64,000 nt of DNA from Gammaproteobacteria bacterium (GTDB lineage: Bacteria; Pseudomonadota; Gammaproteobacteria; Steroidobacterales; Steroidobacteraceae), in assembly GCA_947469285.1 (NCBI GenBank), contig CANIOW010000003.1, positions 62,001 through 126,000 on the forward strand. Direction: 5' to 3'. Shown one piece after another: positions 33,279-45,771 of this stretch. The position numbers and the translations under genes are program-made. The notes under the pieces are model-generated. The model did not search any database, had not been told where the DNA came from, and was given only the letters and a program-made list of their open reading frames with translations. The stretch's first letter is position 1; each line of letters begins with the position of its first letter.

Positions 33279-36200
33279 TTACGCAGCCCGGGCGCTCCGT
33301 GAAAAGCGCTTGCGCAGACTGCGCAGGTGAATAGCGAAGTCATCCACGTAGGTGAACACCGCCGGCACCACCACGAGGCTGAGCACCGTGGAGGTAATGA
33401 GGCCACCGATCACTGCCACGCCCATCGGCGCACGGAAACTGCTGTCGACGCCCATTCCCAGTGCGATCGGCAACATACCCGCGCCCATGGCCAGCGAGGT
33501 CATGACAATGGGCCGCGCCCGCTTGTGGCAGGCATCAATCAGCGCTTCACTACGGCTGAGTCCATGGTCCCGTCGCGCCACAATGGCGTACTCAACGAGC
33601 AAGATGGAGTTCTTGGTCGCAATGCCCATGAGCATGAGCAGGCCGATGAGCGCCGGCATCGACAGCGAGGTACCGGTGAGCACCAGCGCACCGAAGGCAC
33701 CACCGATGGAGAGCGGCAGGGCCGCCAAAATCGTGATGGGCTGTAGGAAGTCGTGGAATAGCAGTACCAAAATGGCGTACACAAAAAACACGCCGGCAAA
33801 CATCGCCAAAATAAAGCTGGCAAACAGCTCCCCGAGTATTTCAGCGTCGCCCGACGGCACTTCGCGAACGCCGGCCGGCAGGTTGCGCACCGAAGGCAAC
33901 TGTTTCACCTGTTTGAGTACCGGACCGATGGGTTCGCCGCCCAGTTCACCGGAGATAATGATGTCGCGGCTGCGATCCACGCGGGAAATCTGTGCCGGGC
34001 CACTGCCTTCGGTGACAGTAGCCAGAGTCCCCAGTGGCACCGGGCCGGATGCCGTAGGCACCCGCAGCTGTCGCACCATCTCCAGACTGTCACGCGCCGC
34101 TTCTGGCAAGGCCACGCGAATGGGAATTTGCCGGTCCGGCAGATCGAACTTCGCCAAGGCCACCTGAAAATCGCCCGCCGTGGCCACGCGAGTCACATCA
34201 CCCAAAGCCACGGTGTCCACACCAAGGCGCGCCGTGAGTTCGGCATCCGTGCGCACCTGAATTTCTGGACGCACCAGACTGGCACTGGAACGCAGGTTGC
34301 CCATCGAGCCCAGTGAGCGCATCTCGCGCTCTACCGCCGCGGCTGCTTTGGTCAGCATCTCCGGGTCGTCGCCGGCCAACATCAAGTCGAGCTTCTCACC
34401 AGGCTCGCCGGTGCTGATCGCAAAGCGCGCACCCGGCACACTCTGCAGCACCTCGCGCATGTTGTTTTCAAGTGCCTGCTGCGAGCGGTGGCGTTCATTC
34501 TCGGGGCCAAAATCCACCGTCAGCGTGGCCCGCCGAATATCCGCCGGCAGACTGTTGTCGAAGTTACCGGTCATAGCGGCACCGACCGCCGCGTACACGG
34601 AGCGCACTTCCGGGATGCGCTGCACCGCCAGCCGTGCGGCCTCAGCGGCCTGCCGCGTGTCTTCTATCGTGCTGCCAGGCGGCAGCTCAACGCTTAACGA
34701 AGTGCGGCCTTTGTCGGCCGCCGGCAGAAACGACGAGGGCAGCAAGGTCATCAGCCCCAGCGACGCCACAAAGAACAGCGTCGCGCCCACGACGGTGATG
34801 CGGCGGTGCGCCATGGCCTGGCGCACCAGCGCGAGATACCAGATTTCCAGTCGTGTGTCCTGCCGCACCTCGACGGTGGGCGTCAGCAGATAGGCCGCCA
34901 TCATCGGCGTCAGCAGACGTGCCACCAGCAACGACACCAACACCGCCACGCCGGCCGTCCAGCCGAATTCACGGAAGAAGCGACCCGGAATGCCCGCCAT
35001 AAATGCCGTGGGCACGAACACTGCCACCAAGGTAAGTGACGTGGCAATGACCGCCAAGCCAATTTCATCAGCGGCTTCCAACGCAGCCTTGAGCGGCGAC
35101 TTGCCCATGCGCAGATGGCGTTCGATATTTTCCACTTCGACGATCGCGTCGTCGACCAATATGCCCACCACCAACGCCAACGCCAACAAGGACGACGAAT
35201 TGAGCGTAAACCCAGCCAGCCACATGGCGCCAAAGGTAGGGATAATGGACAGCGGTAGCGCGAGCGCGGACACCAGTGTGGCGCGGTAGTCACGCAGGAA
35301 CCACCACACCACTAGCACCGCTAACAGCGCACCTTCCCACAAGGCATTCATCGAGGCCCGATACGAGCCACTGACCTGGTCCGTGGTATTGGAGACTTCA
35401 GCGAACTGCACCTCGGGATGTTTGGCGGCCAACTCGGCAATACGCGCCCGTGTCGCTTCGCCAACGCGCACCTCACCTGCGCCACGCGAGCGGAAGACTT
35501 CGATACCTACGATGGGTTGGCCATCGAGCAGCGCTAGCTGACGGCGCTCGGCATAAGCATCGCGGACGACCGCCACTTCATCCAGACGCACCGTCCCGCC
35601 ACGGGGCAGAGTGATGCGCAGCGCGCCTAAGGCCTCAACGCTGGTGGCCGCACCGAGTGTCCGCACGGATTGTTCCGCAGCACCGAGATTGCCACGGCCA
35701 CCCGGGACTTCACGCTGTGTGCGCTGCAGGGCCCGCGAGATATCGGCGGCACTCACACCAAAGGCCGCGAGCTTCAACGGATCGAGATCGACGCGTATCT
35801 CGCGTTCCACCCCACCAATGCGCCCGACCCGCGCCACTCCTGGCACACCGAGCAGCTGTTTGGCGATCGTGCCGTCAATAAACCACGACAACTCACGCTC
35901 GTCGAGTTGCGGCGCCTTGACCGCATACGTCAGGATGGCCGCGCCAGCGACGCTAATACGCGCCACCACGGGCTCTTCGATATCACGCGGCAACTGGTCG
36001 CGAACACGGGTGACCGCATCCCGCACATCATCCACAGCATCGGTGACGTCTTTTTCGATGACGAAACTGATCACCGAGGTCGACAGACCATCGGTGATGG
36101 TCGAGACAATATGTTTGACGCCCTCAGCACTGGCGATCGAATCTTCGATCTTGCGCGTGACCTCCGACTCCAGCTGTGCAGGTGAGGCACCTGGCAAAGC

Positions 36201-36404
36201 GACCGTGACCGTGACGGCTGGCAGGTCGATGTTCGGCATGTCCTGCACGTCAAGGCGCTGAAACCCCAACAGCCCAACCAAGCAAAGAAACACGAAGATG
36301 AGCACCGCCGGCACCGGGGCGCGAATGGCCCAGGCCGACAAGTTCCAGCCCATCTCCACCGAGTTCGGCAGGTCCGGTGCGGGGGGTCGCGTCGGCTCAG
36401 TCAC
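33279..36404 (-). CDS. RND multidrug efflux pump (HAE1 family)
   Basis: 1041 residues from GTG 36404, overlapping the adaptor stop (GTGA). AcrB-type inner-membrane proton/drug antiporter with 12 membrane segments and two large periplasmic loops. The proton-relay Asp pair is in VVGILVDDAIVEVENIERH and the relay Lys in MGIATKNSILLVEYA. The N-terminus (WAIRAPVPAVLIFVFLCLVGLLG) and DMPNIDLPAVTVTVALPG follow the family. It forms a tripartite pump with the adaptor (36401) and outer-membrane channel (37543), controlled by the TetR gene at 38967. Export of toxic steroid intermediates is a reasonable guess but not shown. Confidence 0.95.
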   Translation of the reverse strand: MTEPTRPPAPDLPNSVEMGWNLSAWAIRAPVPAVLIFVFLCLVGLLGFQRLDVQDMPNIDLPAVTVTVALPGASPAQLESEVTRKIEDSIASAEGVKHIVSTITDGLSTSVISFVIEKDVTDAVDDVRDAVTRVRDQLPRDIEEPVVARISVAGAAILTYAVKAPQLDERELSWFIDGTIAKQLLGVPGVARVGRIGGVEREIRVDLDPLKLAAFGVSAADISRALQRTQREVPGGRGNLGAAEQSVRTLGAATSVEALGALRITLPRGGTVRLDEVAVVRDAYAERRQLALLDGQPIVGIEVFRSRGAGEVRVGEATRARIAELAAKHPEVQFAEVSNTTDQVSGSYRASMNALWEGALLAVLVVWWFLRDYRATLVSALALPLSIIPTFGAMWLAGFTLNSSSLLALALVVGILVDDAIVEVENIERHLRMGKSPLKAALEAADEIGLAVIATSLTLVAVFVPTAFMAGIPGRFFREFGWTAGVAVLVSLLVARLLTPMMAAYLLTPTVEVRQDTRLEIWYLALVRQAMAHRRITVVGATLFFVASLGLMTLLPSSFLPAADKGRTSLSVELPPGSTIEDTRQAAEAARLAVQRIPEVRSVYAAVGAAMTGNFDNSLPADIRRATLTVDFGPENERHRSQQALENNMREVLQSVPGARFAISTGEPGEKLDLMLAGDDPEMLTKAAAAVEREMRSLGSMGNLRSSASLVRPEIQVRTDAELTARLGVDTVALGDVTRVATAGDFQVALAKFDLPDRQIPIRVALPEAARDSLEMVRQLRVPTASGPVPLGTLATVTEGSGPAQISRVDRSRDIIISGELGGEPIGPVLKQVKQLPSVRNLPAGVREVPSGDAEILGELFASFILAMFAGVFFVYAILVLLFHDFLQPITILAALPLSIGGAFGALVLTGTSLSMPALIGLLMLMGIATKNSILLVEYAIVARRDHGLSRSEALIDACHKRARPIVMTSLAMGAGMLPIALGMGVDSSFRAPMGVAVIGGLITSTVLSLVVVPAVFTYVDDFAIHLRSLRKRFSRSARAA

Positions 36405-37546
36405 AGGGCCGGCCCGCTCACGACGCGCACATAGTCCGCATCATTCAAAAAGCCAGCGCCGGCGGCTACTACGCGCACGCCGACCGCAAGGCCGTGCAGA
36501 ATCTCGATGCGGTTAGCCTGACGACGACCGGTGACCACGCGTAAGCGCTGGACCTGGTCCTCCTTGCCGAGCTTAAAGACATAGGCCAGACCGTCGCGCA
36601 GCACCACCGCCGACTGCGGCAGCGTGAGCGCTGGCGCGTCGCCGAGCAAAAACCGTCCGTTAGCAAAAGTACCCGCGGCGGCATAGCGGCTGGCACCAGG
36701 CAGGTCGACATAGGCCAGAACCGTGCGATTACGGGCGTCGACCTTAGGCGACAGCGCGCGCACTTTGCCGCTCATCGTCGTGCCCTGTGCGGTGGTCAGC
36801 TCTACCCGCACGCCGGGACGCACGGCCACGAGATTGCCTTCGGCAATCTCGGCGCGCCATTCCAGGCGTGACTGGCGAATGAGACGAAACAGTTCCGTAC
36901 CGGCAGGCACCACCGCACCAGTGGTCGCTGCACGCGCCGAGATCACTCCAGCATCCGGCGCCACCACGCGGGTCTTCTGCAGCAGCAAGGCCGCCAGGTC
37001 GCGGCGGGCCTTGGCGCTGTTCCACTGCGCTTTCGCGGCCCGTGCTGCCACCTCGAACTGGTCGAGATCCTGGGCCGACAAAGCCCCCGTATCAATGAGC
37101 GACCGTGAGCGCCCGGCATTTGACGCCGCCTCGGCCTCACGTGCCGCCGCTTCGTCCACCGCCGCCTCGGCTTGGGCCAGTTCCGCCACCGCGGTTTCGT
37201 CAGCGAACCGCGCCAGCAGTTGACCGCGGGTGACACGGTCCCCCACGTTGGCACGCACTTCGGCGAGGCGCAGCCCATTCACTTCCGCGCCCACGCTGGC
37301 CTCCTCCCAGGCCTCGATGCTACCGCTCGCGGCCAGCACCCGTGGCCAGGATTCTTGCCGCGACTGCGCCACGGTCACGCTCAACGAAACCGCAGCCGTG
37401 CGCTTTGCCGTGGCCAAAGTGGTAGCCGCCATCGTTGGCGCCGGCGCCTGTAGCCACAGACCGAGCAGCGCTGCCGCTGCTACGCCGATCAACACCCAAA
37501 CCTTGCGCCACTGACGCCAGTCTGCGAATCCAGCCATATCGTTCAT
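36401..37546 (-). CDS. RND periplasmic adaptor (membrane fusion protein)
   Basis: 381 residues from ATG 37546, overlapping the channel gene stop (ATGA) with GAAGG upstream. One N-terminal membrane segment (KVWVLIGVAAAALLGLWL), then the lipoyl half-motifs ASVGAEVNGLRLAEVRANVGDRVTRGQ and VVAPDAGVISARAATTGAVVPAGT flanking an alpha-helical hairpin rich in Ala/Glu (ELAQAEAAVDEAAAREAEAA). The C-terminal beta-barrel and membrane-proximal domains follow. It bridges the RND pump and outer-membrane channel. Confidence 0.93.
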   Translation of the reverse strand: MNDMAGFADWRQWRKVWVLIGVAAAALLGLWLQAPAPTMAATTLATAKRTAAVSLSVTVAQSRQESWPRVLAASGSIEAWEEASVGAEVNGLRLAEVRANVGDRVTRGQLLARFADETAVAELAQAEAAVDEAAAREAEAASNAGRSRSLIDTGALSAQDLDQFEVAARAAKAQWNSAKARRDLAALLLQKTRVVAPDAGVISARAATTGAVVPAGTELFRLIRQSRLEWRAEIAEGNLVAVRPGVRVELTTAQGTTMSGKVRALSPKVDARNRTVLAYVDLPGASRYAAAGTFANGRFLLGDAPALTLPQSAVVLRDGLAYVFKLGKEDQVQRLRVVTGRRQANRIEILHGLAVGVRVVAAGAGFLNDADYVRVVSGPAL

Positions 37547-38970
37547 CCTTCGTGGCGGGACCAGCCGCCACCCAAAGCCTTGTAAACCGCAATCCACGCC
37601 GTGGTGCGTTCGTGTTCCAGTGCGAGCAAGGTATCGTCGGCTTGCAAGCCGACGCGCCGCAGCTCTTCCAGTTCCAGCACGCTCGCCAGCCCCTGCCGCT
37701 GCCGCGCCTCGGTCGCGGCGAGCACGGTGGTATAGCGGTGGACAGCACGCGTGGCGTCATCCGCCCGCGAGTTCGCGGCGGCCAGCGTGACCAAAGCGTC
37801 TTCGACTTCGCGAATGGCTTGACGCACCACATCTTCATAATGGGCATGCGCGCCATCCACCCGGACGCGCAGCACTTGCAGCCCGGCAACGGCGCGTCCT
37901 GCGCTCAGCACCGGCAGACTGACGGACGGGCCGAATTTCCACGGCGAGACCTCGAAGGACTGGCCGAGCACGTCCGTGCGTTCTTTGCCGAGCGAGCCGG
38001 TGAGTGTGACCGCAGGCAGCAGCTGCGCCAGCCCCACTCCGACCTCGGCGTTCGCTGCCGCCCATTCAGCTTCTGCGGCGGCCACATCGGGGCGTTGACG
38101 AATCAGTGCCGCCGGCAAGGTGTCGATGCGCACCACCTTTGGGTGCACCGCGCCTTCGCTGCGTGGCAAGGCCAGCGTGGCCGCCACCTTGGCCGGTGCA
38201 AGTCCGCTCAGATACACCAGCGCATTGCGGGTGCGAGCGCACTGCGCCTGTGTCGCCGCTACCAGCGTCGCCGTGTCTGCGTCGGCGGCGTCCGCCAGCG
38301 CCGCCTCAACGCTGGAGGCCAGTCCGGCACGCGCCTTCAACGCGAGCAGGTCCCGTGTCTGCCGTCGCGACTGTAGCGCTGCCTGTTGCAACAACACGCG
38401 CGCCTCACAGCTCCGCAGCGCCGAGTAAGTGGAGGCTACTTCCGCTGCCAATGACACCTTTGCATCATTCCATTCAGCCTCCCGAGCACGCGCTCGCGCC
38501 CGGGAGGCTTCCAGCGCGCGGCGTTTACCGCCGAACAGGTCGAGTTCCCACCGCGCGTCGAGGCTCCGACTACGCACTTCCGTAAGGCCGGTCAGCGCGC
38601 CTTGATTGTCGAAGCCGAAGATACTGCGGCTGCGCTTGAACTCTGCATTGGCACTGCCATCCGGCAACAGTCCAGCCACATCGAGCCAGGCCGTGGCCCG
38701 CGCCTCACGCAGGCGCGCGAGGGCGGTGTCCAGCGAAGGATTCAGCGTCTCGGCGGCCTCGATGAACGTCGTCAGTGCCGGGTCGTTGAACTGCTGCCAC
38801 CAGGCCAGCAGCTGCGCCGGCTGCCCGTCGTGCGGCAGTGTCGCCTGCCACGCTGCCGGCACAACCGGCGTGGGCGCCTTGAAGTTCGGGCCGACCGCGC
38901 AAGCACCGAGCAGGCTGGCTAACGCCAGCGACATGAGCGTGAGTCGACCCGTCAACGGCCGGCAGCTCAT
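37543..38970 (-). CDS. Outer-membrane efflux lipoprotein (TolC/OprM family)
   Basis: 475 residues. A lipoprotein signal peptide ends in the lipobox LLGAC (Cys about residue 24), followed by AVGPNFKAPTPVVPAAW, the NodT/OprM start. Two outer-membrane efflux protein domains with long helices follow (RARAREAEWNDAKVSLAAEVASTY). The ATG overlaps the tetR stop (ATGA). It supplies the exit channel for the downstream adaptor and pump. Gene order tetR-channel-adaptor-pump is unusual only in that the channel comes first. Confidence 0.93.
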   Translation of the reverse strand: MSCRPLTGRLTLMSLALASLLGACAVGPNFKAPTPVVPAAWQATLPHDGQPAQLLAWWQQFNDPALTTFIEAAETLNPSLDTALARLREARATAWLDVAGLLPDGSANAEFKRSRSIFGFDNQGALTGLTEVRSRSLDARWELDLFGGKRRALEASRARARAREAEWNDAKVSLAAEVASTYSALRSCEARVLLQQAALQSRRQTRDLLALKARAGLASSVEAALADAADADTATLVAATQAQCARTRNALVYLSGLAPAKVAATLALPRSEGAVHPKVVRIDTLPAALIRQRPDVAAAEAEWAAANAEVGVGLAQLLPAVTLTGSLGKERTDVLGQSFEVSPWKFGPSVSLPVLSAGRAVAGLQVLRVRVDGAHAHYEDVVRQAIREVEDALVTLAAANSRADDATRAVHRYTTVLAATEARQRQGLASVLELEELRRVGLQADDTLLALEHERTTAWIAVYKALGGGWSRHEG

Positions 38971-39677
38971 AAAGCACCCCGGCGGCGCTGTTCGGCTTCG
39001 ATCAAGGCGGCGCCAAATAATGCACTCCGCTCTACGAGCACTTCGCGCGCTTCAGGCGTCGCCAGCAGCCCTGGCGCAAACGCCTCCACTTCCGGGCGCA
39101 CCAGAAAATAGATGGTCCCCAGTCCCACCATGGCAAACGCTAACGCGTGTAAGGCCTCGTCCGGGGCGGTGAGTTTGAATTCGCGGCACAGCAGCAAGGT
39201 GAGTCGGTCGTGGTAAGGACGAATGGCTTGCGTCTGCGTCGATCCGAGCACGCCGCTGGGTTCCACCTGTTCGCGCGCATGTAGGAGCATGAGCTGCCGC
39301 GACACTTCGTCACAGCCAAGGACCGACAGCATGCCGCGGTAAAAATGCCGCAGCCGATCCGTACGCGGTAATGCGGCGTCATCCATCCACCGCGAGACCT
39401 CGAGAATCTGCTGCATCGGCAATTGGAACAGCGCCTGGTAAAGCGCCGCTTTGTCGCCGAAGTGGTAGTGGATGGCGGCCGAGTTGGCGCCGGCCCGCTC
39501 GCAGATTTCACGGGTAGAGGCGCCGTGGTAACCCTGCTTGGCGAACACCCCGATGGCGGCCCGCACCAGTCGGTAGCGTGTGTCGTCCCGGGTTGCCCCG
39601 GCGCCGAGGCCGGCAAACGGTCCGCTGGCCGGAGCAACGCTGGCCGCTAGGTCGTGGAAGGGGACGGTGGCGTTCAT
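38967..39677 (-). CDS. TetR-family regulator with DUF1956 (CecR-like) domain
   Basis: 236 residues from ATG 39677; GTG 39710 would add 11. The N-terminal HTH is visible in YRLVRAAIGVFAKQGYHGAS, then TREICERAGANSAAIHYHFGDK. The C-terminal ligand domain resembles DUF1956 (MQQILEVSRWMDD, then RGMLSVLGCDEVSRQLMLLHARE). It is the first gene of the efflux operon, and a palindrome at 39713-39730 just upstream is its likely operator. It therefore probably represses its own operon and is relieved by a pump substrate. Confidence 0.9.
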   Translation of the reverse strand: MNATVPFHDLAASVAPASGPFAGLGAGATRDDTRYRLVRAAIGVFAKQGYHGASTREICERAGANSAAIHYHFGDKAALYQALFQLPMQQILEVSRWMDDAALPRTDRLRHFYRGMLSVLGCDEVSRQLMLLHAREQVEPSGVLGSTQTQAIRPYHDRLTLLLCREFKLTAPDEALHALAFAMVGLGTIYFLVRPEVEAFAPGLLATPEAREVLVERSALFGAALIEAEQRRRGAL

Positions 39678-39712
39678 GGTGGGCGGCAGTGTAGAGGCCG
39701 CACCGGGCACAT

Positions 39713-39745: not shown

Positions 39746-40786
39746 TTAGCTGGTCGCCTTCGCCGTCCCACCCAGCAGGTTCAATTGCCACAGGTCCTTG
39801 CCGGTCACCGTCAAGATGGGGCGCAAGGTCATCAAGGCCGTCTTGCCCACCGCCCGCTCCAAGTGAGCCAATTCCGCCAGGCCGCTTTGAATCTCCGGAT
39901 CGGGGCCCTCTTCGCCAAGACCCACTTCGCGCATCAGAATCAAACCGTTGGCCCGCAACGCCAGCTCACCCTGCAGCCGCATATAGCACAGCATGTCTGC
40001 CAGCGTTTCGCCGTCGAAACGGTTACGCAGCGACTGCAGATAGCGGCCCGAAGGCGTGTCCAGAAACTGGCCAGACTTGATGCTGTTTAGCAAAGTCAGT
40101 TTGGCGTTGAGGTCCGACTCCATCCAGTCGCGCAGCCCGCTCTCGCTGCGCTTGAACACGAAATAGAACGCTACCGGCAACACCACCGCCATGACGGCCG
40201 TGGCAATAAAGGGCTGCACCAGCAGATGGTTGAAAGCCGAATGCAACACCACGCCGCAGACAAACCCCGGCAGGAAGTATTGCAGCCCGCCGTCGGGATG
40301 CCGGTCATACAGCGCTACTGAGATCATGGCGAAGATGCCCGTGGCGCCGCCATGCATGATGGCCGTACCGAAACCCCGGATGATCTGCACCAGCAGCACC
40401 GCGTTGGTGCGCTCCGCCAGATAGAACACATTTTCTACCAGCGCGAACCCCGCACCGAGTGCAAAACCGACGATGAGCGCGTCGACCAGCAGGCCCACGC
40501 GACGGGTATGCACAAACACCACCACCAGCAGGCCCTTGAGCAATTCTTCAACCCACGGTGCGACGTAACGCGAGTACGTCACAAACTCCATATCGAATTG
40601 ATTGTACACAGCACCATTGACGAAGTAGCTCGCCCCGGCGGTGGCCGCACCCACCACAATGATGCCCGTAATCAATTTCACGGACACCAGCTTGAAGCTG
40701 TCGAAGTAAATCAAGGCAGCCAGAAACACCACCACCGGCAGCAGCGCCACCGGCGTGTCCCAGGTCAGCAACCAATGCTCATACAT
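39746..40786 (-). CDS. PrsW-family intramembrane metalloprotease
   Basis: 346 residues from ATG 40786, whose first base is the last base of the preceding stop (TGATG); GTG 40789 is the alternative. About eight membrane segments occupy residues 12-205. The PrsW motifs are present: Glu80-Glu81-x2-Lys84 (PWVEELLKG), Glu118 (FALVENVFYLAE), His145 (MHGGATG) and His182 (HSAFNH). A soluble C-terminal part of about 140 residues follows. In Bacillus PrsW cuts anti-sigma RsiW at site 1. Here an ECF sigma/anti-sigma pair lies 4 kb upstream on the same strand. Coupling to the large outer-membrane protein gene suggests they act together. Confidence 0.88.
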   Translation of the reverse strand: MYEHWLLTWDTPVALLPVVVFLAALIYFDSFKLVSVKLITGIIVVGAATAGASYFVNGAVYNQFDMEFVTYSRYVAPWVEELLKGLLVVVFVHTRRVGLLVDALIVGFALGAGFALVENVFYLAERTNAVLLVQIIRGFGTAIMHGGATGIFAMISVALYDRHPDGGLQYFLPGFVCGVVLHSAFNHLLVQPFIATAVMAVVLPVAFYFVFKRSESGLRDWMESDLNAKLTLLNSIKSGQFLDTPSGRYLQSLRNRFDGETLADMLCYMRLQGELALRANGLILMREVGLGEEGPDPEIQSGLAELAHLERAVGKTALMTLRPILTVTGKDLWQLNLLGGTAKATS

Positions 40787-43700
40787 CACAACACCTGAAA
40801 CGAGATCATGAATTCATTCTTGCCCAGACCGCCGCCACCAAAGCCGCGCGCAAAGCCGACCGAGAACATCATCGGTAGGCGGTGCATGACCTGCAACTGG
40901 AAGTCGAGCTGCACGCCCACATTCGAGGCGTGCTGGCGCAGATTGGCATCCTGAACGTTGGTCACCATGGTGCTGGCGAAAATCTCCGGGCGCATCCAGC
41001 TCAAGTAAGCCCCGGGGCTGCCCAGCGCGTCAAAGCGCAGTGGCGGCAAGCTCCATTCGAGCATGGTCTTCACCAAGGTCTTGCCGCTGAGGGCATCGAT
41101 GTCGAAACCGGGCATGGAGAGCATGTCGCGGTAGCGCTGTGCACCGCCGTTGGCGGCGTTGTCCACATAGTTGTTACCAAAGCTGCCCACGTACGCATTG
41201 GACAGCGGCGAATCCACATGCCCGTCAGAGACACTGAACCCACTTCTCAGCCACAGAGAAGAGTGGTTGATGGGCAGCGAGAACCCCACGTCGTATTGGC
41301 CGCTGATGCTGGCGGTCAGATCGCCACGCGCGCCCAGCGTGTGCGCCATCAGCGACCAGCTGTGTCCGGCCTCATTGTCGACAGCGCCCTCAGAGGAACG
41401 TGTATCCACGGACACCAGGCCCACATCCAGCGCTGACAGATGGCTGGGAGAAGCAATCGTCTGCGACCCAGGCAGTGCGTCGAGGCCGCCGTAATAAGCG
41501 AGGTTGACCACGAAGTTGAGCGTCTCGGGCGGGTCGTACACCAGCGGGCGGTCGTAGTTGAGGTAAACGCTATAGCCCTCGCGTGCCAGCTTGGTCGGGC
41601 CGAACAGGTCGTAGAAGTCAGCGGCGTTCCACTTCACGCCGGTGGTCCAGTTGCCGTGGTGCAGATCGGCATTGAAATGCAGCCGCTCCTTCACCCGCAC
41701 TGCGGTACCGGGGCTATAGCTTAAGTCTGTCTTTAACCAGTCGAGCCCCATCGGGTCGCCGAAGGCCGCGTTAAAGCCCACGGCCTTGGCGTTTTTGTAA
41801 GCCGCAATACCGGGAATTAAATAGTTGAGACGCAGTTCATGCAAGGGCCGGTAGTCGCCCTTGCCAATGACACGAGCGTCGTACGCACTGCTCGGCGCGG
41901 TGCTACTGATGCCCCAGCTCTGTACCACCGGGTGCTGCGACGACACCTGTTCGCCCAGAAAGGTGATGGCGCTCATGTCTTCCGTGGGTTTGGCGTCAAT
42001 GACCGTCGGCACAAACCCTGTGCCGCTGTAGCGCAACACCAGCAACTGGTCGTTGGTCAACACCTGCGGGCGGAAGAAACCGATAGCGGTGTTGCTCACC
42101 GCCTCAAGCGCTTCATTGGCCAACTCGTAACGGTAGATATTGGACACACCCGTGTAGTAACTGCTGCCGAACAAATAACGTCCGTCAGGGGAAAACACAA
42201 AGCCTTCCGGGGTGGCGCCGTCGAGATGTAGGCGGTGCACAGGCGTGGCATCGCCTTTCTCCAGCGCCGCCACGCTCATGACGCGCACTTCACTCACCGG
42301 CCGTGTGGTGGGTGTTGACCCGGGACGGGACACGCTCACCGACACCAACGTGCCGTCGGCGGACACGTCGAGGTCGCTCGGTGCCTCGGGGTAGCGGAAC
42401 ACCGACACGGTCTTCCATTCCCGATACGGGTAGGGCAAGCGCACGAGCATGGCGAAGCCGCGGTTGTGACGCAGGCCCCACAAGGAGCGGTCAGCCGCGT
42501 TGAAAGCGAGATCGCCAATGCGGGCGCCTGCTGCCAGCAGGCTGACCTTGCCGGTACGCAGGTCGAGCGCCTCCAGGTTGCGGTAAGTGTTGTTGTTGCT
42601 GGTGAAGAACAAGGTTTCGTTGGCCGCATCATAGGCCAGCGAAGCCACCCGGAGACCACTGGGGCCTTTCACCTCCAGCAGGTTGGTGACCTTGCCGTTC
42701 TGGCGGGCAATGGCCACCAGCTGCGACACCTGGCCCGGGAATTTGATGGCGGCATAGACCTTCGTGCCGTCCGCCGACACAAAAGTGCGCGACACCGAAC
42801 CCAGCAACTGCTGCGTCACATCCTGGTAAGGCGTGATGGGGTGTTCCTTGGCCGCGGCCAGGTTCTTTTGCTGGAACTCGTGTTCAAACCGCACCCAGTT
42901 CTGCCACGACTGCTCCAGCGGCAAACCATAGACCTGCTGGAACTGGTCAGCGTAATAGCGCTGTGTGCCGTCTTTTCGCGTCAACCAGGCCAGCAGCTTT
43001 TCTGGGCCATAGGTCAGCGCCAGATAATTCATGAAGCGCGTGCCATACAGATAAGCATTGGCGCCGGAGCGGAAATCGACTTCCGTACCCTTGGACACCA
43101 GCCCCAGTGGGTCATAGAAGGGCACGCCTTCATTCACCATGCCGCGGAACACCATCTCATCGAAGCCGCCCCAGGCGCGGCCCGTGCCGCCCATCTGCCA
43201 GGTTTCCATGAACACCGCCGCGCCTTCTTGGTACCAGCGAGGCGCCGTTGAACGAGGCGAAGTCAGGTAGTAGTACAGCAGGCTTTCCGGATGCTGCGCG
43301 TCGGGGATGACCTTGCCGCGGAACAAGGAACGAAAACGCCGGTCTGCTGCCGAGGCGCCGTCGTTGAAAACCACATGGAGCGTCTCATGCGCCGCGGTGG
43401 ACGTGAAATTGTCCGCGGGCGTGAGTGACTCATAGGGTTCATCCGGCACCGATACCTCATAGAACACCTGGTTACGCGGTGCGGTGGTGGTGGTGGCATC
43501 GGAGCCATCACTGAAATCTGACAGCAGCACATTCACCTGGCCGTCGGGCTGGAAGCCAAACAGTGCCTTATCGGCGTCCAAGGCATCGAGGAAACTGCGC
43601 GCCGCACTCGGCGCCAAAAAGGCCGTCGCCGGGTCGTAATAGACAACCTTGAGTTCTTTGGTCTCGATATATTTCAGCTGCGCAGGTGCCGGCAAGGCGA

Positions 43701-43791
43701 CCGCGAGTAGGGCCAAGGCCGCCGCTGACGCCAACAGCCGCCGCGCCACGTGGTGAGGAAGCCGCTGCTGCAGCGCCTGGAGCGTGTTCAT
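40786..43791 (-). CDS. Outer-membrane protein with HExxH protease-like domain, beta-propeller and barrel
   Basis: 1001 residues from ATG 43791, with GGGGGAAGGG upstream. Residues 1-38 are a Sec signal (LLASAAALALLAVALPAPAQ). Residues 40-330 look like a gluzincin (peptidase MA-like) domain: HETLH at 135-139 and the third-ligand motif WYQEG (Glu189) with Glu196. Residues about 340-640 are TolB-like propeller repeats (FVSADGTKVYAAIKF, FSPDGRYLFGSSYYTG). From about 650 there are alternating amphipathic strands ending in KNEFMISFQVL, suggesting an outer-membrane beta-barrel. I know no characterised protein with this exact order. It overlaps the PrsW-like gene by one base. Catalytic activity is inferred from motif only. 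Confidence 0.75.
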   Translation of the reverse strand: MNTLQALQQRLPHHVARRLLASAAALALLAVALPAPAQLKYIETKELKVVYYDPATAFLAPSAARSFLDALDADKALFGFQPDGQVNVLLSDFSDGSDATTTTAPRNQVFYEVSVPDEPYESLTPADNFTSTAAHETLHVVFNDGASAADRRFRSLFRGKVIPDAQHPESLLYYYLTSPRSTAPRWYQEGAAVFMETWQMGGTGRAWGGFDEMVFRGMVNEGVPFYDPLGLVSKGTEVDFRSGANAYLYGTRFMNYLALTYGPEKLLAWLTRKDGTQRYYADQFQQVYGLPLEQSWQNWVRFEHEFQQKNLAAAKEHPITPYQDVTQQLLGSVSRTFVSADGTKVYAAIKFPGQVSQLVAIARQNGKVTNLLEVKGPSGLRVASLAYDAANETLFFTSNNNTYRNLEALDLRTGKVSLLAAGARIGDLAFNAADRSLWGLRHNRGFAMLVRLPYPYREWKTVSVFRYPEAPSDLDVSADGTLVSVSVSRPGSTPTTRPVSEVRVMSVAALEKGDATPVHRLHLDGATPEGFVFSPDGRYLFGSSYYTGVSNIYRYELANEALEAVSNTAIGFFRPQVLTNDQLLVLRYSGTGFVPTVIDAKPTEDMSAITFLGEQVSSQHPVVQSWGISSTAPSSAYDARVIGKGDYRPLHELRLNYLIPGIAAYKNAKAVGFNAAFGDPMGLDWLKTDLSYSPGTAVRVKERLHFNADLHHGNWTTGVKWNAADFYDLFGPTKLAREGYSVYLNYDRPLVYDPPETLNFVVNLAYYGGLDALPGSQTIASPSHLSALDVGLVSVDTRSSEGAVDNEAGHSWSLMAHTLGARGDLTASISGQYDVGFSLPINHSSLWLRSGFSVSDGHVDSPLSNAYVGSFGNNYVDNAANGGAQRYRDMLSMPGFDIDALSGKTLVKTMLEWSLPPLRFDALGSPGAYLSWMRPEIFASTMVTNVQDANLRQHASNVGVQLDFQLQVMHRLPMMFSVGFARGFGGGGLGKNEFMISFQVL

Positions 43792-43984
43792 GTAGCCCTT
43801 CCCCCGGGTTGGTTTTTGTTGGCTGGCCACCACGGTGGCACAGACCAGCCACTGGATTTCCACCAGCAGCTTAGCCTAAAGCATGGCTAAAAAACCACAG
43901 CGACCGGGGCGGCCTGAGACACGGGGCGCCGCCGGTGGTAGGCACTGGCGGCTTGAGCCGCCGCGCATCAAAGCGCCACCCCAA

Positions 43985-44008
43985 AGCGCCAGCCAGAAGG
44001 CTGACGCT
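43985..44008 (-). terminator. Hairpin downstream of the lipoprotein gene
   Basis: On the minus strand AGCGTCAGCC, loop TTCT, GGCTGGCGCT gives a 10-bp stem with one G-T pair, followed by TTTGGGG. It lies about 30 bases after the lipoprotein stop. A second perfect stem (GGCGGCT/AGCCGCC, 43947-43962) follows. Together they may terminate the lipoprotein transcript, though the U-tract is short. Confidence 0.4.
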
Positions 44009-44036
44009 GTGGGGGAGATCTAGACGACTAAATCGA

Positions 44037-44336
44037 TTATTTCCGGCCCTTCTTCCCGTTGCCGGCGGCGCCGCCAGCGGTTGCTACGGCAGCTGCACTG
44101 GAAGCGTCGACGTCAGCACCAGCCGTAGCAGCCTCGATGGCGGCGGCGTCCGTGGCCACGGCGGCATCGGCCGCTGCCGGCTCAGACGCATACGTGGTGG
44201 TGGTGTGGTCGGTAGCGCGCTTGGCGGCCATGATGGTGCCGGCGGCATCCTGGGAGGCAGAACCACCACCGCAGCCGGTGAGCAGAGCAAAAGTGCCACA
44301 GGCCACCAAAGACATTGCAAGACTGGTCAACTTCAT
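44037..44336 (-). CDS. Small Ala-rich lipoprotein
   Basis: 99 residues with GGGGAAGATC before ATG 44336. The signal peptide (SLAMSLVACGTFALLTGC) ends in lipobox LLTGC, followed by GGGSASQ. The rest is low complexity, mainly Ala with Thr/Asp/Gly (AAADAAVATDAAAIEAATAG), and ends in basic GNGKKGRK. No known domain. It has the same bipartite promoter as the ECF sigma gene upstream, so it is probably a target of that sigma factor. It could be an envelope-stress lipoprotein that reports to or protects the outer membrane; that is inference. Confidence 0.75.
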   Translation of the reverse strand: MKLTSLAMSLVACGTFALLTGCGGGSASQDAAGTIMAAKRATDHTTTTYASEPAAADAAVATDAAAIEAATAGADVDASSAAAVATAGGAAGNGKKGRK

Positions 44337-44405
44337 GATCTTCCCCTTAATTTAATGGGCATTTGCCCAGTTTAACGAAACACAGAATATATCAGCCATT
44401 TCAAC

Positions 44406-44435
44406 AAGTACGTCAGACACCACAAAAAGTTGGTG
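44406..44435 (-). promoter_or_regulatory. Candidate ECF promoter of the lipoprotein gene
   Basis: On the minus strand CACCAACTTTT-N14-TACTT, identical in both boxes and in spacing to the element before the ECF sigma gene (45742-45771). AACTT to TACTT spacing is 16 bases, as for ECF promoters. It predicts a leader of about 64 bases before the lipoprotein start. Confidence 0.6.
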
Positions 44436-44447
44436 GAATTTCGGTTT

Positions 44448-45194
44448 TTATTGGGCGCCTGCTGCCGGTGGCTGGGGCACCGGGCCTTTCAGGCTGGCCG
44501 TGCCGAGTTCCTGACCATTCACTAAAAACTGCAGGCGCACCGCACCCTCGCCCGCCGCAGACCCGGGTAAATGCACCGTAAAATGCTGGTAGCCCGTGGT
44601 TTTAGCCAGATGGTCCACCAGCAGCTCGCCGCCGGCGTGGTGCACCCTAATCTGCACCGCGGCACGGGCGGTCACGGCAAAATCGAGGCTCACACCAGCC
44701 GCCGTCTGGTAAGTAGCGACGCGGCCCTGGAGCCCAGCGAAGTCGAGGGCCACGCTGTCCAGCTGGCCTACCGACCGCTCAGCTTTCACCAAGGTGCCGG
44801 CCAGCTGGCTGCTGTCGGACAACGAGGCACTGTCCACCGGCAGCAACATTGACCCCGCGAACGCCAAGCCAGCCAGCGAGGCCGCCATGGCCCACACCGG
44901 CCAACCCCCCGGCACCGCACGGCGCAAGCCGGCGGGTGTAAGACGCACCACCGTGGTCTGCCCCTGACGGACGGACGGCGGGGGCAAAGCCGCCAGGATG
45001 TCCGCGGCCAAACTGGCCGGCGGCGCTACCCGTTCCAGTCCGTCCAGCGACGCCGTCAGCTGCTTTAGATCCTGGTGCCACTGCGCCATTTCGGTATTTT
45101 CTGACAGACACCGCGCCAGTTCGGCGCGCCCAGCCGCGTCGAGCTCACCGTCGAGCTCTGCGTGGAGGAGTTCAAAGTGCCGTGCGTCCATCAT
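44448..45194 (-). CDS. Single-pass membrane anti-sigma factor
   Basis: 248 residues. The N-terminal cytoplasmic part (FELLHAELDGELDAAGRAEL, then ARCLSENTEMAQWHQDL) resembles an anti-sigma domain without the HxxxCxxC zinc motif. One membrane segment spans about residues 98-120 (WPVWAMAASLAGLAFAGSMLLPV), then a periplasmic part of about 125 residues with beta-strand character. It starts six bases after the ECF sigma stop without its own good ribosome site, so translation is coupled, as usual for anti-sigma genes. The topology is that of RsiW/RseA, which are cleaved by regulated intramembrane proteolysis. A PrsW-like protease is encoded downstream. Confidence 0.8.
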   Translation of the reverse strand: MMDARHFELLHAELDGELDAAGRAELARCLSENTEMAQWHQDLKQLTASLDGLERVAPPASLAADILAALPPPSVRQGQTTVVRLTPAGLRRAVPGGWPVWAMAASLAGLAFAGSMLLPVDSASLSDSSQLAGTLVKAERSVGQLDSVALDFAGLQGRVATYQTAAGVSLDFAVTARAAVQIRVHHAGGELLVDHLAKTTGYQHFTVHLPGSAAGEGAVRLQFLVNGQELGTASLKGPVPQPPAAGAQ

Positions 45195-45200
45195 GTAGGG

Positions 45201-45737
45201 TCAGCGTGTCCGTTCGTGGATCAGAAGTTCGCGCAGTTTTTGCCGCGCACTGTGCAGTCTCGATTTCACCGTCTTGTCCGGCACCTGCAGTACCTCGGCC
45301 ATCTCCTCGTAACTCAGGTCCAGCACATGCCGCAAAATGACCACCTGCCGCTGTTCGCTCACCAGTCGCAACAAGGCGACGTTGATCGCCACTGCCGTCT
45401 GGCCGCCTGCCGTGGTCGCCTCGGGCCCTGGCGCGCCGTCGATCTCCGAGCCGGTGATCTCCGCATACTGCTTGCGCCTTCCCAGTGCCGTCAGCGCCTC
45501 ATTCAAAGCGATGCGGTAGAGCCAGCTGAAGAAGCGGTACTGCGGATCAAAATCCTCTAAATGCTCAAAGGCTTTCAAAAAAGCGTTCTGGGCCACGTCT
45601 TTGGCGTCTTCCCGGTTCCCCAGCATGCGCAGGGCCGCGTTGTAGACGGGCAACTGATAGCGCAGAACCAACACGTCAAACGCCGCTCGGTCTCCCGCGC
45701 GACAGCGTTGCACCAGTTCTACGTCATCCGCTGACAT
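45201..45737 (-). CDS. ECF-family RNA polymerase sigma factor
   Basis: 178 residues from ATG 45737. Region 2 is FDVLVLRYQLPVYNAALRML, then GNREDAKDVAQNAFLKAFEH and FFSWLYRIALNEA. Region 4.2 is LDLSYEEMAEVLQVPDKTVK, then SRLHSARQKLRELL. It is RpoE-like in length and layout. The next gene is its membrane anti-sigma factor. A promoter element shared with the lipoprotein gene lies so close that the predicted transcript begins at or within a base or two of the ATG. This points to autoregulation and possibly leaderless translation. An in-frame extension upstream to 45890 has no homology. Confidence 0.93.
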   Translation of the reverse strand: MSADDVELVQRCRAGDRAAFDVLVLRYQLPVYNAALRMLGNREDAKDVAQNAFLKAFEHLEDFDPQYRFFSWLYRIALNEALTALGRRKQYAEITGSEIDGAPGPEATTAGGQTAVAINVALLRLVSEQRQVVILRHVLDLSYEEMAEVLQVPDKTVKSRLHSARQKLRELLIHERTR

Positions 45738-45741
45738 TAGG

Positions 45742-45771
45742 AAGTATCTTCCAGAGAGAGAAAAGTTGGTG
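45742..45771 (-). promoter_or_regulatory. Candidate autoregulatory ECF promoter
   Basis: On the minus strand CACCAACTTTT-N14-TACTT, matching the element before the lipoprotein gene (44406-44435) in both boxes and spacing; the N14 spacers differ. The -10 ends five bases before the ATG of the sigma gene. Confidence 0.6.

Follow-up and report, generated by a model that had tools for sequence, protein, structure and literature searches.

In a 64,000-nucleotide stretch of gammaproteobacterial DNA (the window; all coordinates are positions in it, and its source genome, of 3.1 Mb, is estimated to be 100% complete), five minus-strand open reading frames lie in a row and encode an extracytoplasmic function (ECF) sigma factor (45201–45737, 178 aa), a single-pass anti-sigma factor (44448–45194, 248 aa), a small lipoprotein (44037–44336, 99 aa), an outer-membrane protein (OMP; 40786–43791, 1001 aa) and a PrsW-family intramembrane protease (39746–40786). 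An earlier note on this DNA had listed all five genes, and all are present at the positions it gave; it had proposed that the OMP senses envelope damage and that PrsW passes the signal on, with the lipoprotein as an incidental part. Our analysis moves the reading from damage sensing to a sigma circuit coupled to its own cargo. In our estimate the chances are about even that the locus encodes machinery devoted to processing and exporting membrane-anchored proteins with a short GT motif (GT proteins), and that this machinery is run by its own sigma circuit; the promoter and the linkage of the genes are well supported by sequence, and cleavage and export are what we infer. The lipoprotein, which is the GT-motif cargo of this locus and has the motif in common with the anti-sigma factor, becomes the foremost candidate for what the circuit regulates.

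The shared tag is most easily followed in the anti-sigma factor. Its predicted parts are a helical cytoplasmic domain (residues 4–69), a membrane helix (99–116), a low-confidence linker (118–139) and a beta domain (142–235), and the linker holds the sequence AGTL (residues 132–135; 44790–44801). In an alignment of 31 anti-sigma factors, which share 16–34% identity with that of the window, the only invariant columns are P59 and G133, and T134 is found in 30/31. The pattern GT[ILMV] lies 9–19 residues past the hydrophobic helix window in 30 of the 31 proteins, compared with an average of 2.2 (maximum 8) when the linkers are shuffled, and the surrounding stretch (118–139) is modelled at a pLDDT below 50, as a flexible linker would be. 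GT is the most conserved extracytoplasmic point among these divergent proteins, a pattern in keeping with selection and not with a relic. In the lipoprotein (lipobox LTGC by reading), the sequence GTIMAAKR (residues 33–40; 44217–44240) lies 11 residues past the lipobox cysteine, and the lipoprotein and the repeat proteins described below share the anchor-proximal motif GT[IVLM]xxAxR.

In relatives, the slot of the lipoprotein is taken by proteins whose single N-terminal membrane helix is followed by the motif GT[IV]xPAxRYR, a brief conserved segment and finally a run of tandem repeats. Forty of these proteins have 90 residues or more beyond a point 40 residues past the motif; in them the repeat part is 96–516 residues long, and a period of 9, 18 or 27 fits best in 27/40, the others having periods such as 3, 8, 10, 11 or 13 or no clear one. 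Extremely low-complexity repeats (NAS, GNAA, GAA, GTSGLS; L149, L174, L115, L135) and nonapeptides occur behind the same conserved N-terminus, a diversity that suggests rapid repeat turnover. In lipoproteins of the window type, of which close relatives have several copies, the motif follows the lipobox cysteine at a short distance; two GT lipoproteins (L067:10368–10625 and L068:4771–5007) end in CxxCH (CASCHD and CTDCHD), a c-type haem-binding pattern. No family model covered anchor and motif at E < 0.01 in the ten proteins scanned (six repeat, three fused, one anti-sigma), a single match at 0.032 being at chance level. Matches of the repeat proteins to DUF826, HRP and other Pfam and NCBIfam models were set aside, as they differ from protein to protein, fall mostly in the repeats and look compositional.

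In ten loci (L131, L135, L146–L149, L169, L171, L180 and L182; L171 is from the root isolate Rhizobacter sp. Root404) inhibitor and cargo meet in one reading frame, the anti-sigma frame continuing into a membrane helix, the GT motif and repeats. On a tree of the OMPs, the split and fused states require at least four changes, three of them forced by well-supported branches (a quick tree, with SH-aLRT support only). All eight fused frames caught by the pattern have a Shine-Dalgarno-like stretch at an ATG that lies close to where the membrane helix begins, 34–43 residues before GT. As a control, internal ATGs of OMP frames have such a stretch in 15% of 158 cases within the same loci and in 18% of 1593 overall; two of the eight also carry another ATG without such a stretch. 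From what would be an internal start, a fused frame could also yield a short form that lacks the sigma-binding domain.

An ECF-type promoter motif ties the sigma factor to the same proteins, and two exact copies of it within this segment had escaped the earlier note. Sigma and GT genes share CCAACTTTT-N13-GTA, seen first by eye and then by count, and the pattern CCAACTTT-N14-RTAYTT occurs on the minus strand with 0 mismatches before the sigma/anti-sigma operon (45742–45769) and, likewise as a pattern match, before the lipoprotein gene (44406–44433). In the upstream regions of relatives it was found for 29/37 sigma genes and 20/39 GT genes, where shuffles average at most 0.2, and for 0/39 anti-sigma, 0/75 OMP and 0/68 PrsW genes (gene starts are approximate, and regions of less than 100 bases were dropped); given the last two counts, a placement of the OMP or PrsW genes directly behind this motif was rejected. 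When GT genes are split by their surroundings, leaving out L126 and L177 with too little upstream sequence, the 32 with a sigma or anti-sigma gene in the locus have the pattern in strict form in 21 cases, in loose form in 3 and not at all in 8, and the 9 without a detected sigma or anti-sigma gene nearby have it in 0/9.

In the whole source genome, the exact pattern occurs at three sites (0 for the reversed pattern as control): the two in the window and one on another contig, before an unlinked lipoprotein gene whose product has AGTM after its lipobox. No further exact site lies in the window, and since matches with up to 3 mismatches number 4 there against 3.7 expected, only exact sites count. 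Across 15 genomes, including the source, 24 exact sites (2 for the reversed pattern) precede sigma genes in 6 cases, genes of GT proteins in 15 (two on other contigs) and other or unclear genes in 3; 2/15 genomes have none. The motif is probably used by the sigma factor of the locus. In relatives, the sigma start codon mostly lies 3 bases past the GTA of the promoter (e.g. L122:4065 and L151:4326), and the gap in the window is 7 bases (45735–45769). A spacing of 3 bases would imply either that the transcript has no leader or that the start lies within the sigma gene.

The linkage of the sigma half of the row to its protease half, which the earlier note had drawn from gene order and had made to depend on conservation in related genomes, held up, as both gene order and co-occurrence are conserved; our comparison makes it appear much stronger than gene order alone did. 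OMP and PrsW were found in the same 11 of 59 genomes (that of the window and 58 relatives), 9 of which were also recovered by a single-sequence search with the anti-sigma factor. In a wider search of 396 genomes belonging to the order, OMP and PrsW occurred together in 57, the OMP by itself in 2, PrsW by itself in 3 and neither in 334; among these 334 are seven genomes whose PrsW matches were too weak to be counted (E 1e-5 to 3e-4). The OMP-only genomes are 80–82% complete, and in the PrsW-only ones the matches are partial. Fisher's p for these counts is 1.4e-62, a value that ignores relatedness and is not taken as a probability.

At the level of gene order, we found 259 stretches with OMP relatives in named genomes and read the best 80 loci, several of which come from one genome; 40 loci of another set of relatives overlap with these 80. 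By record title the 80 belong to Gamma-, Beta- and Alphaproteobacteria, Acidobacteria and some others, and two contigs titled Candidatus Planktophila (L108) and Bifidobacterium breve (L153) are likely mislabelled bins. PrsW directly follows the OMP in 65 of the 73 loci with 1.1 kb downstream, sigma and anti-sigma are present in 33 of the 41 loci with 4 kb upstream, and by pattern a GT protein is encoded just before the OMP in 49/59. Six of the ten pattern misses have a variant motif on reading (L104, L105, L106, L109, L129 and L182), in L135 an over-long OMP frame conceals a normal motif, L155 is truncated where its contig ends, and in L145 and L153 no GT motif was seen before the OMP on reading. 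A gene for a GAF-SpoIIE phosphatase and a STAS gene precede sigma in 31/33 loci with sigma, with a HATPase gene (HATPase_c_2) between phosphatase and STAS in the locus scanned (families were checked in two loci). Such an arrangement, e.g. L123:1691–3880, couples partner switching to an ECF sigma factor; the gene that precedes it there (L123:1019–1675) reads like a nucleotide cyclase, without a Pfam match.

Our model of the OMP, made from 50 sequences (pLDDT 88.5, pTM 0.88), adds to the 1001-residue HExxH protein that the earlier note had correctly described a TolB-like propeller and an Omp85-like barrel, both of which it had overlooked. From the N-terminus, motifs and model together indicate a gluzincin-type metallopeptidase domain (residues ~38–315; 42847–43680; Peptidase_MA_2 at 0.014, below its cut-off), in which HExxH (residues 135–139; 43375–43389) is followed by a later EGxAxFxE motif. 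The peptidase domain is followed by a TolB-like beta-propeller (~318–604; 41980–42840), of which residues 341–604 match TolB (3iax_A) with Z 23.2 and an rmsd of 2.7 over 243 aligned residues, and by a C-terminal Omp85-like outer-membrane barrel (~654–1000; 40792–41832) with 16 long strands by manual count in the model. The protein thus has a TolB-like propeller before its barrel. It lacks the TpsB arrangement, in which POTRA domains precede the barrel: no POTRA family was found in 50 OMP members at E up to 0.05, and the N-terminal part is modelled as peptidase and propeller. The Omp85_2 family was matched by 21/50 members (best 2.9e-05).

Of the 124 ungapped rows of the alignment (126 rows in all, or 95 distinct sequences), 116 retain the putative zinc-site residues H135, E136, H139 and E189. 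The 8 rows that have lost them represent 6 distinct proteins, all extra copies except in G003, where the protein is the sole copy found in a 75% complete genome. The zinc-site-less OMPs (L188:6587–9942, which is G000:C22, and those of L111, L117, L119, L178 and L079) read HExxS, some with a further change of E to Q or to A, and several lipoproteins beside them end in HNKW, as might be expected of pseudo-peptidases with a partner of their own. The source genome has one of these as its second OMP copy (C22), next to a lipoprotein that reads AT. We considered the OMP peptidase as the enzyme that cuts at GT, which predicts that zinc site and motif are lost together; of the six pairs, GT is kept in four (L117, L119, L178 and L079), and the others read GS (L111) and AT (C22 of the source genome), so this prediction was unsupported.

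The identities of the sigma factor and PrsW were confirmed by clear family matches (Sigma70_r2 at 1.5e-15 and Sigma70_r4_2 at 9e-15; PF13367 at 4.5e-20, 72.5 bits against a cut-off of 23.5). Family matches of the anti-sigma factor are weak (NF052375 at 2.9e-06, with 27.4 bits against a 100-bit cut-off). AlphaFold2, run on an alignment of 31 rows, gave a model (mean pLDDT 80) in which a single membrane helix separates the helical N-terminal domain from the linker and the beta domain. The model had no Foldseek match below E 0.001; RsiW (5wuq_C), which the N-terminal domain resembles, ranked third (TMt 0.72, probability 1.00, E 0.03). The pair is, then, an ECF sigma factor with a single-pass anti-sigma factor bearing a helical sigma-binding domain, the likeness to RsiW itself being only at E 0.03. 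FecIRA-type cell-surface signalling does not fit, as no FecR-type anti-sigma or TonB-dependent receptor family appeared among the Pfam matches of the 31 anti-sigma factors and 50 OMPs, a single OMP having TonB_C at 0.023.

The motifs of PrsW in B. subtilis are EExxK, ExN and two histidines. In the PrsW of the window, E81, E82, K85, E119, H146 and H183 are invariant in 18/18 aligned sequences and N120 is kept in at least 90%. The protein scores 22.8 bits against the 225 bits required by NF033739, the B. subtilis-type equivalog, and falls outside that type; some 130 further C-terminal residues (215–340), past the PF13367 domain, are conserved in its family, and no relative was found in the PDB by sequence at E up to 1. 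The overlap of the PrsW gene with the OMP gene is one base (TGATG), as the earlier note had it, if translation starts at ATG, and four bases if it starts at GTG (to 40789). The idea of an ECF circuit controlled by PrsW keeps its plausibility in part, through the putative active-site residues and through an anti-sigma topology that would fit regulated intramembrane proteolysis (RIP). A candidate site-2 protease of the M50 family is encoded elsewhere in the source genome (G000:C23:19769–21064, E 9.2e-66).

One possible mechanism would join these parts as follows. The anti-sigma factor and the GT protein would be substrates of one processing machine, consisting of PrsW and/or the OMP with its peptidase, propeller and Omp85-like barrel. 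The GT motif would be the recognition or cleavage site, most simply for PrsW beside the membrane, with the OMP peptidase or propeller as an alternative. Cutting would free the GT protein from its anchor, and the barrel would export it to the outer membrane or hold it there. In the anti-sigma factor, a cut at the GT motif would be the site-1 cleavage, which an RseP-type M50 protease would complete, and the freed sigma factor would raise production of more anti-sigma factor and GT protein. With the common motif as recognition site, cutting of the cargo and cutting of the anti-sigma factor would be coupled; the anti-sigma factor would act as a resident mimic of the cargo, and its cleavage would report free processing capacity or the switching-on of the protease. 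Under a logic of capacity sensing, free protease would cut the anti-sigma factor and excess cargo would shield it; under a logic of triggered release, a signal would activate the protease, so that stored cargo is freed and sigma is turned on together. The fullest version of this proposal makes the anti-sigma factor a molecular copy of the cargo with one shared processing tag, has the fused frame yield both a cargo-inhibitor fusion and free cargo, and lets the sigma output measure an undescribed export route (PrsW and the peptidase-propeller-Omp85-like protein) for hypervariable repeat proteins in several phyla; we give it somewhat less than an even chance.

Other explanations account for parts of these data. 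In the one closest to the earlier note, the OMP senses envelope damage, PrsW relays it by cutting the anti-sigma factor, and the lipoprotein either plays an accessory part or is one product among several of a stress response. The list and order of the parts, the preserved PrsW active-site residues and the RsiW-like anti-sigma domain all agree with this. We now regard it as unlikely, because the promoter search of the whole genome, which covered exact sites, gave only the sigma gene and two GT lipoproteins, unlike a broad stress regulon; the shared GT motif and the fused anti-sigma/GT proteins would also be left unexplained. Alternatively, PrsW and the OMP might handle GT proteins only, the anti-sigma factor being controlled by the upstream partner-switching module or by a ligand of its beta domain, with its GT left over from an ancestor that it shared with the cargo. 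The frequency of the phosphatase/HATPase/STAS module before sigma favors such separate control, as do the folded beta domain that the model gives the anti-sigma factor and four loci (L140, L172, L174 and L181) that keep GT protein, OMP and PrsW without a detected sigma or anti-sigma gene despite more than 5 kb before the GT gene. We still think it improbable, given that the conservation of GT in divergent anti-sigma factors fits selection and that the window has no such module beside sigma, a glutathione-transferase-like gene on the opposite strand standing there instead, and phosphatase-domain matches in the genome being distant only (at most 30% identity). A docking tag is a further option: GT would bind, for example, the OMP propeller, anti-sigma factor and cargo would compete for it, and proteolysis would take place elsewhere. 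TolB-like propellers do bind peptides (TolB–colicin and TolB–Pal structure entries), and OMPs that have lost the zinc site still accompany such lipoproteins, four of six with GT. The conservation of two putative proteases, one of them intramembrane, along with the motif, and a distance between motif and membrane that suits juxtamembrane cleavage leave this option a slim chance.

Several of our observations weigh against the coupled processing and export system that we prefer. The core of the proposed tag is short (GT and one hydrophobic residue), most split anti-sigma factors lack the rest of the cargo motif (PAxRYR), and one has GA (L132). The anti-sigma model has a pTM of 0.48. The proposed export via the barrel is based on fold resemblance, and the OMP of the window is itself unmatched by Omp85_2. 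PrsW lies away from the OMP in 8/73 loci, and in G001 it is encoded on a different contig. The persistence of lipoproteins beside zinc-site-less OMPs indicates that peptidase activity is not always needed, the four sigma-less loci indicate that the circuit is not obligatory, and the phosphatase/HATPase/STAS module may be the real input in most other loci.

Among known systems, two-partner secretion (FhaC/TpsB with TpsA) relies on a barrel with POTRA domains. It resembles this locus in that the gene of a repeat-rich envelope protein directly precedes that of an Omp85-like barrel, and differs in that no POTRA was found here and the cargo begins with a membrane anchor or lipobox and the GT motif. 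Of the kinds described so far, the WD40-Omp85 cluster in the Omp85/TpsB superfamily (Heinz and Lithgow 2014, PMC4104836) comes closest; there, too, a TolB-like propeller stands ahead of the barrel, which in the window protein is Omp85-like by its model. As that cluster is described, the OMP is set apart by the metallopeptidase-like domain ahead of its propeller, by a membrane-anchored partner encoded just upstream and by the adjoining sigma, anti-sigma and PrsW genes; the main text of the paper does not contain the word 'peptidase', and the 'Metallo' group that it sets apart is one defined through PF00149.

On the side of the circuit, B. subtilis PrsW cuts RsiW and RasP completes the release of SigW (PMC10202637, PMC4183432). 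The window shares with the SigW–RsiW–PrsW–RasP system an ECF sigma factor, a single-pass RsiW-like anti-sigma factor, a PrsW with conserved acidic and histidine residues and, in the genome, an M50 protease. It departs from it in a PrsW that is below the equivalog cut-off, has the extra conserved C-terminal stretch and stands beside an OMP, in exact promoter sites that, within this genome, lie only before sigma and GT genes, and in an anti-sigma factor and product that share a motif or are fused. In the RpoE–RseA–DegS–RseP system, unfolded barrel proteins activate DegS (PMC4183432), so that there too the site-1 cleavage of an anti-sigma factor depends on proteins of the envelope; here, anti-sigma factor and regulated cargo share a motif, and a DegS-type gene was not seen in the window cluster. 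Among the top-ranked matches in the open-licence literature, we found no description of this system. The circuit would be a variant of RIP-controlled ECF signalling, and the export side may be new. If the proposal is true, the production of an envelope or surface protein is matched to processing capacity by putting the cargo's processing tag on the anti-sigma factor of its dedicated circuit, a WD40-Omp85-type protein gains a partner and a testable task, PrsW gains a role in Gram-negative bacteria, and a protein family is defined by anchor, GT motif and variable repeats.

A terminator between the lipoprotein and OMP genes was considered on the basis of a hairpin at 43986–44007, seen by eye only; a terminator scan omits it and gives another weak site in this gap, at 43902–43914 (10 sites found in the region against 6.0 expected). 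No TetR gene was found in the 40 loci of related genomes searched; in the window, a CecR-like TetR regulator lies 35 bases downstream of PrsW and is followed by further genes up to an AcrB-type transporter (33279–39710).

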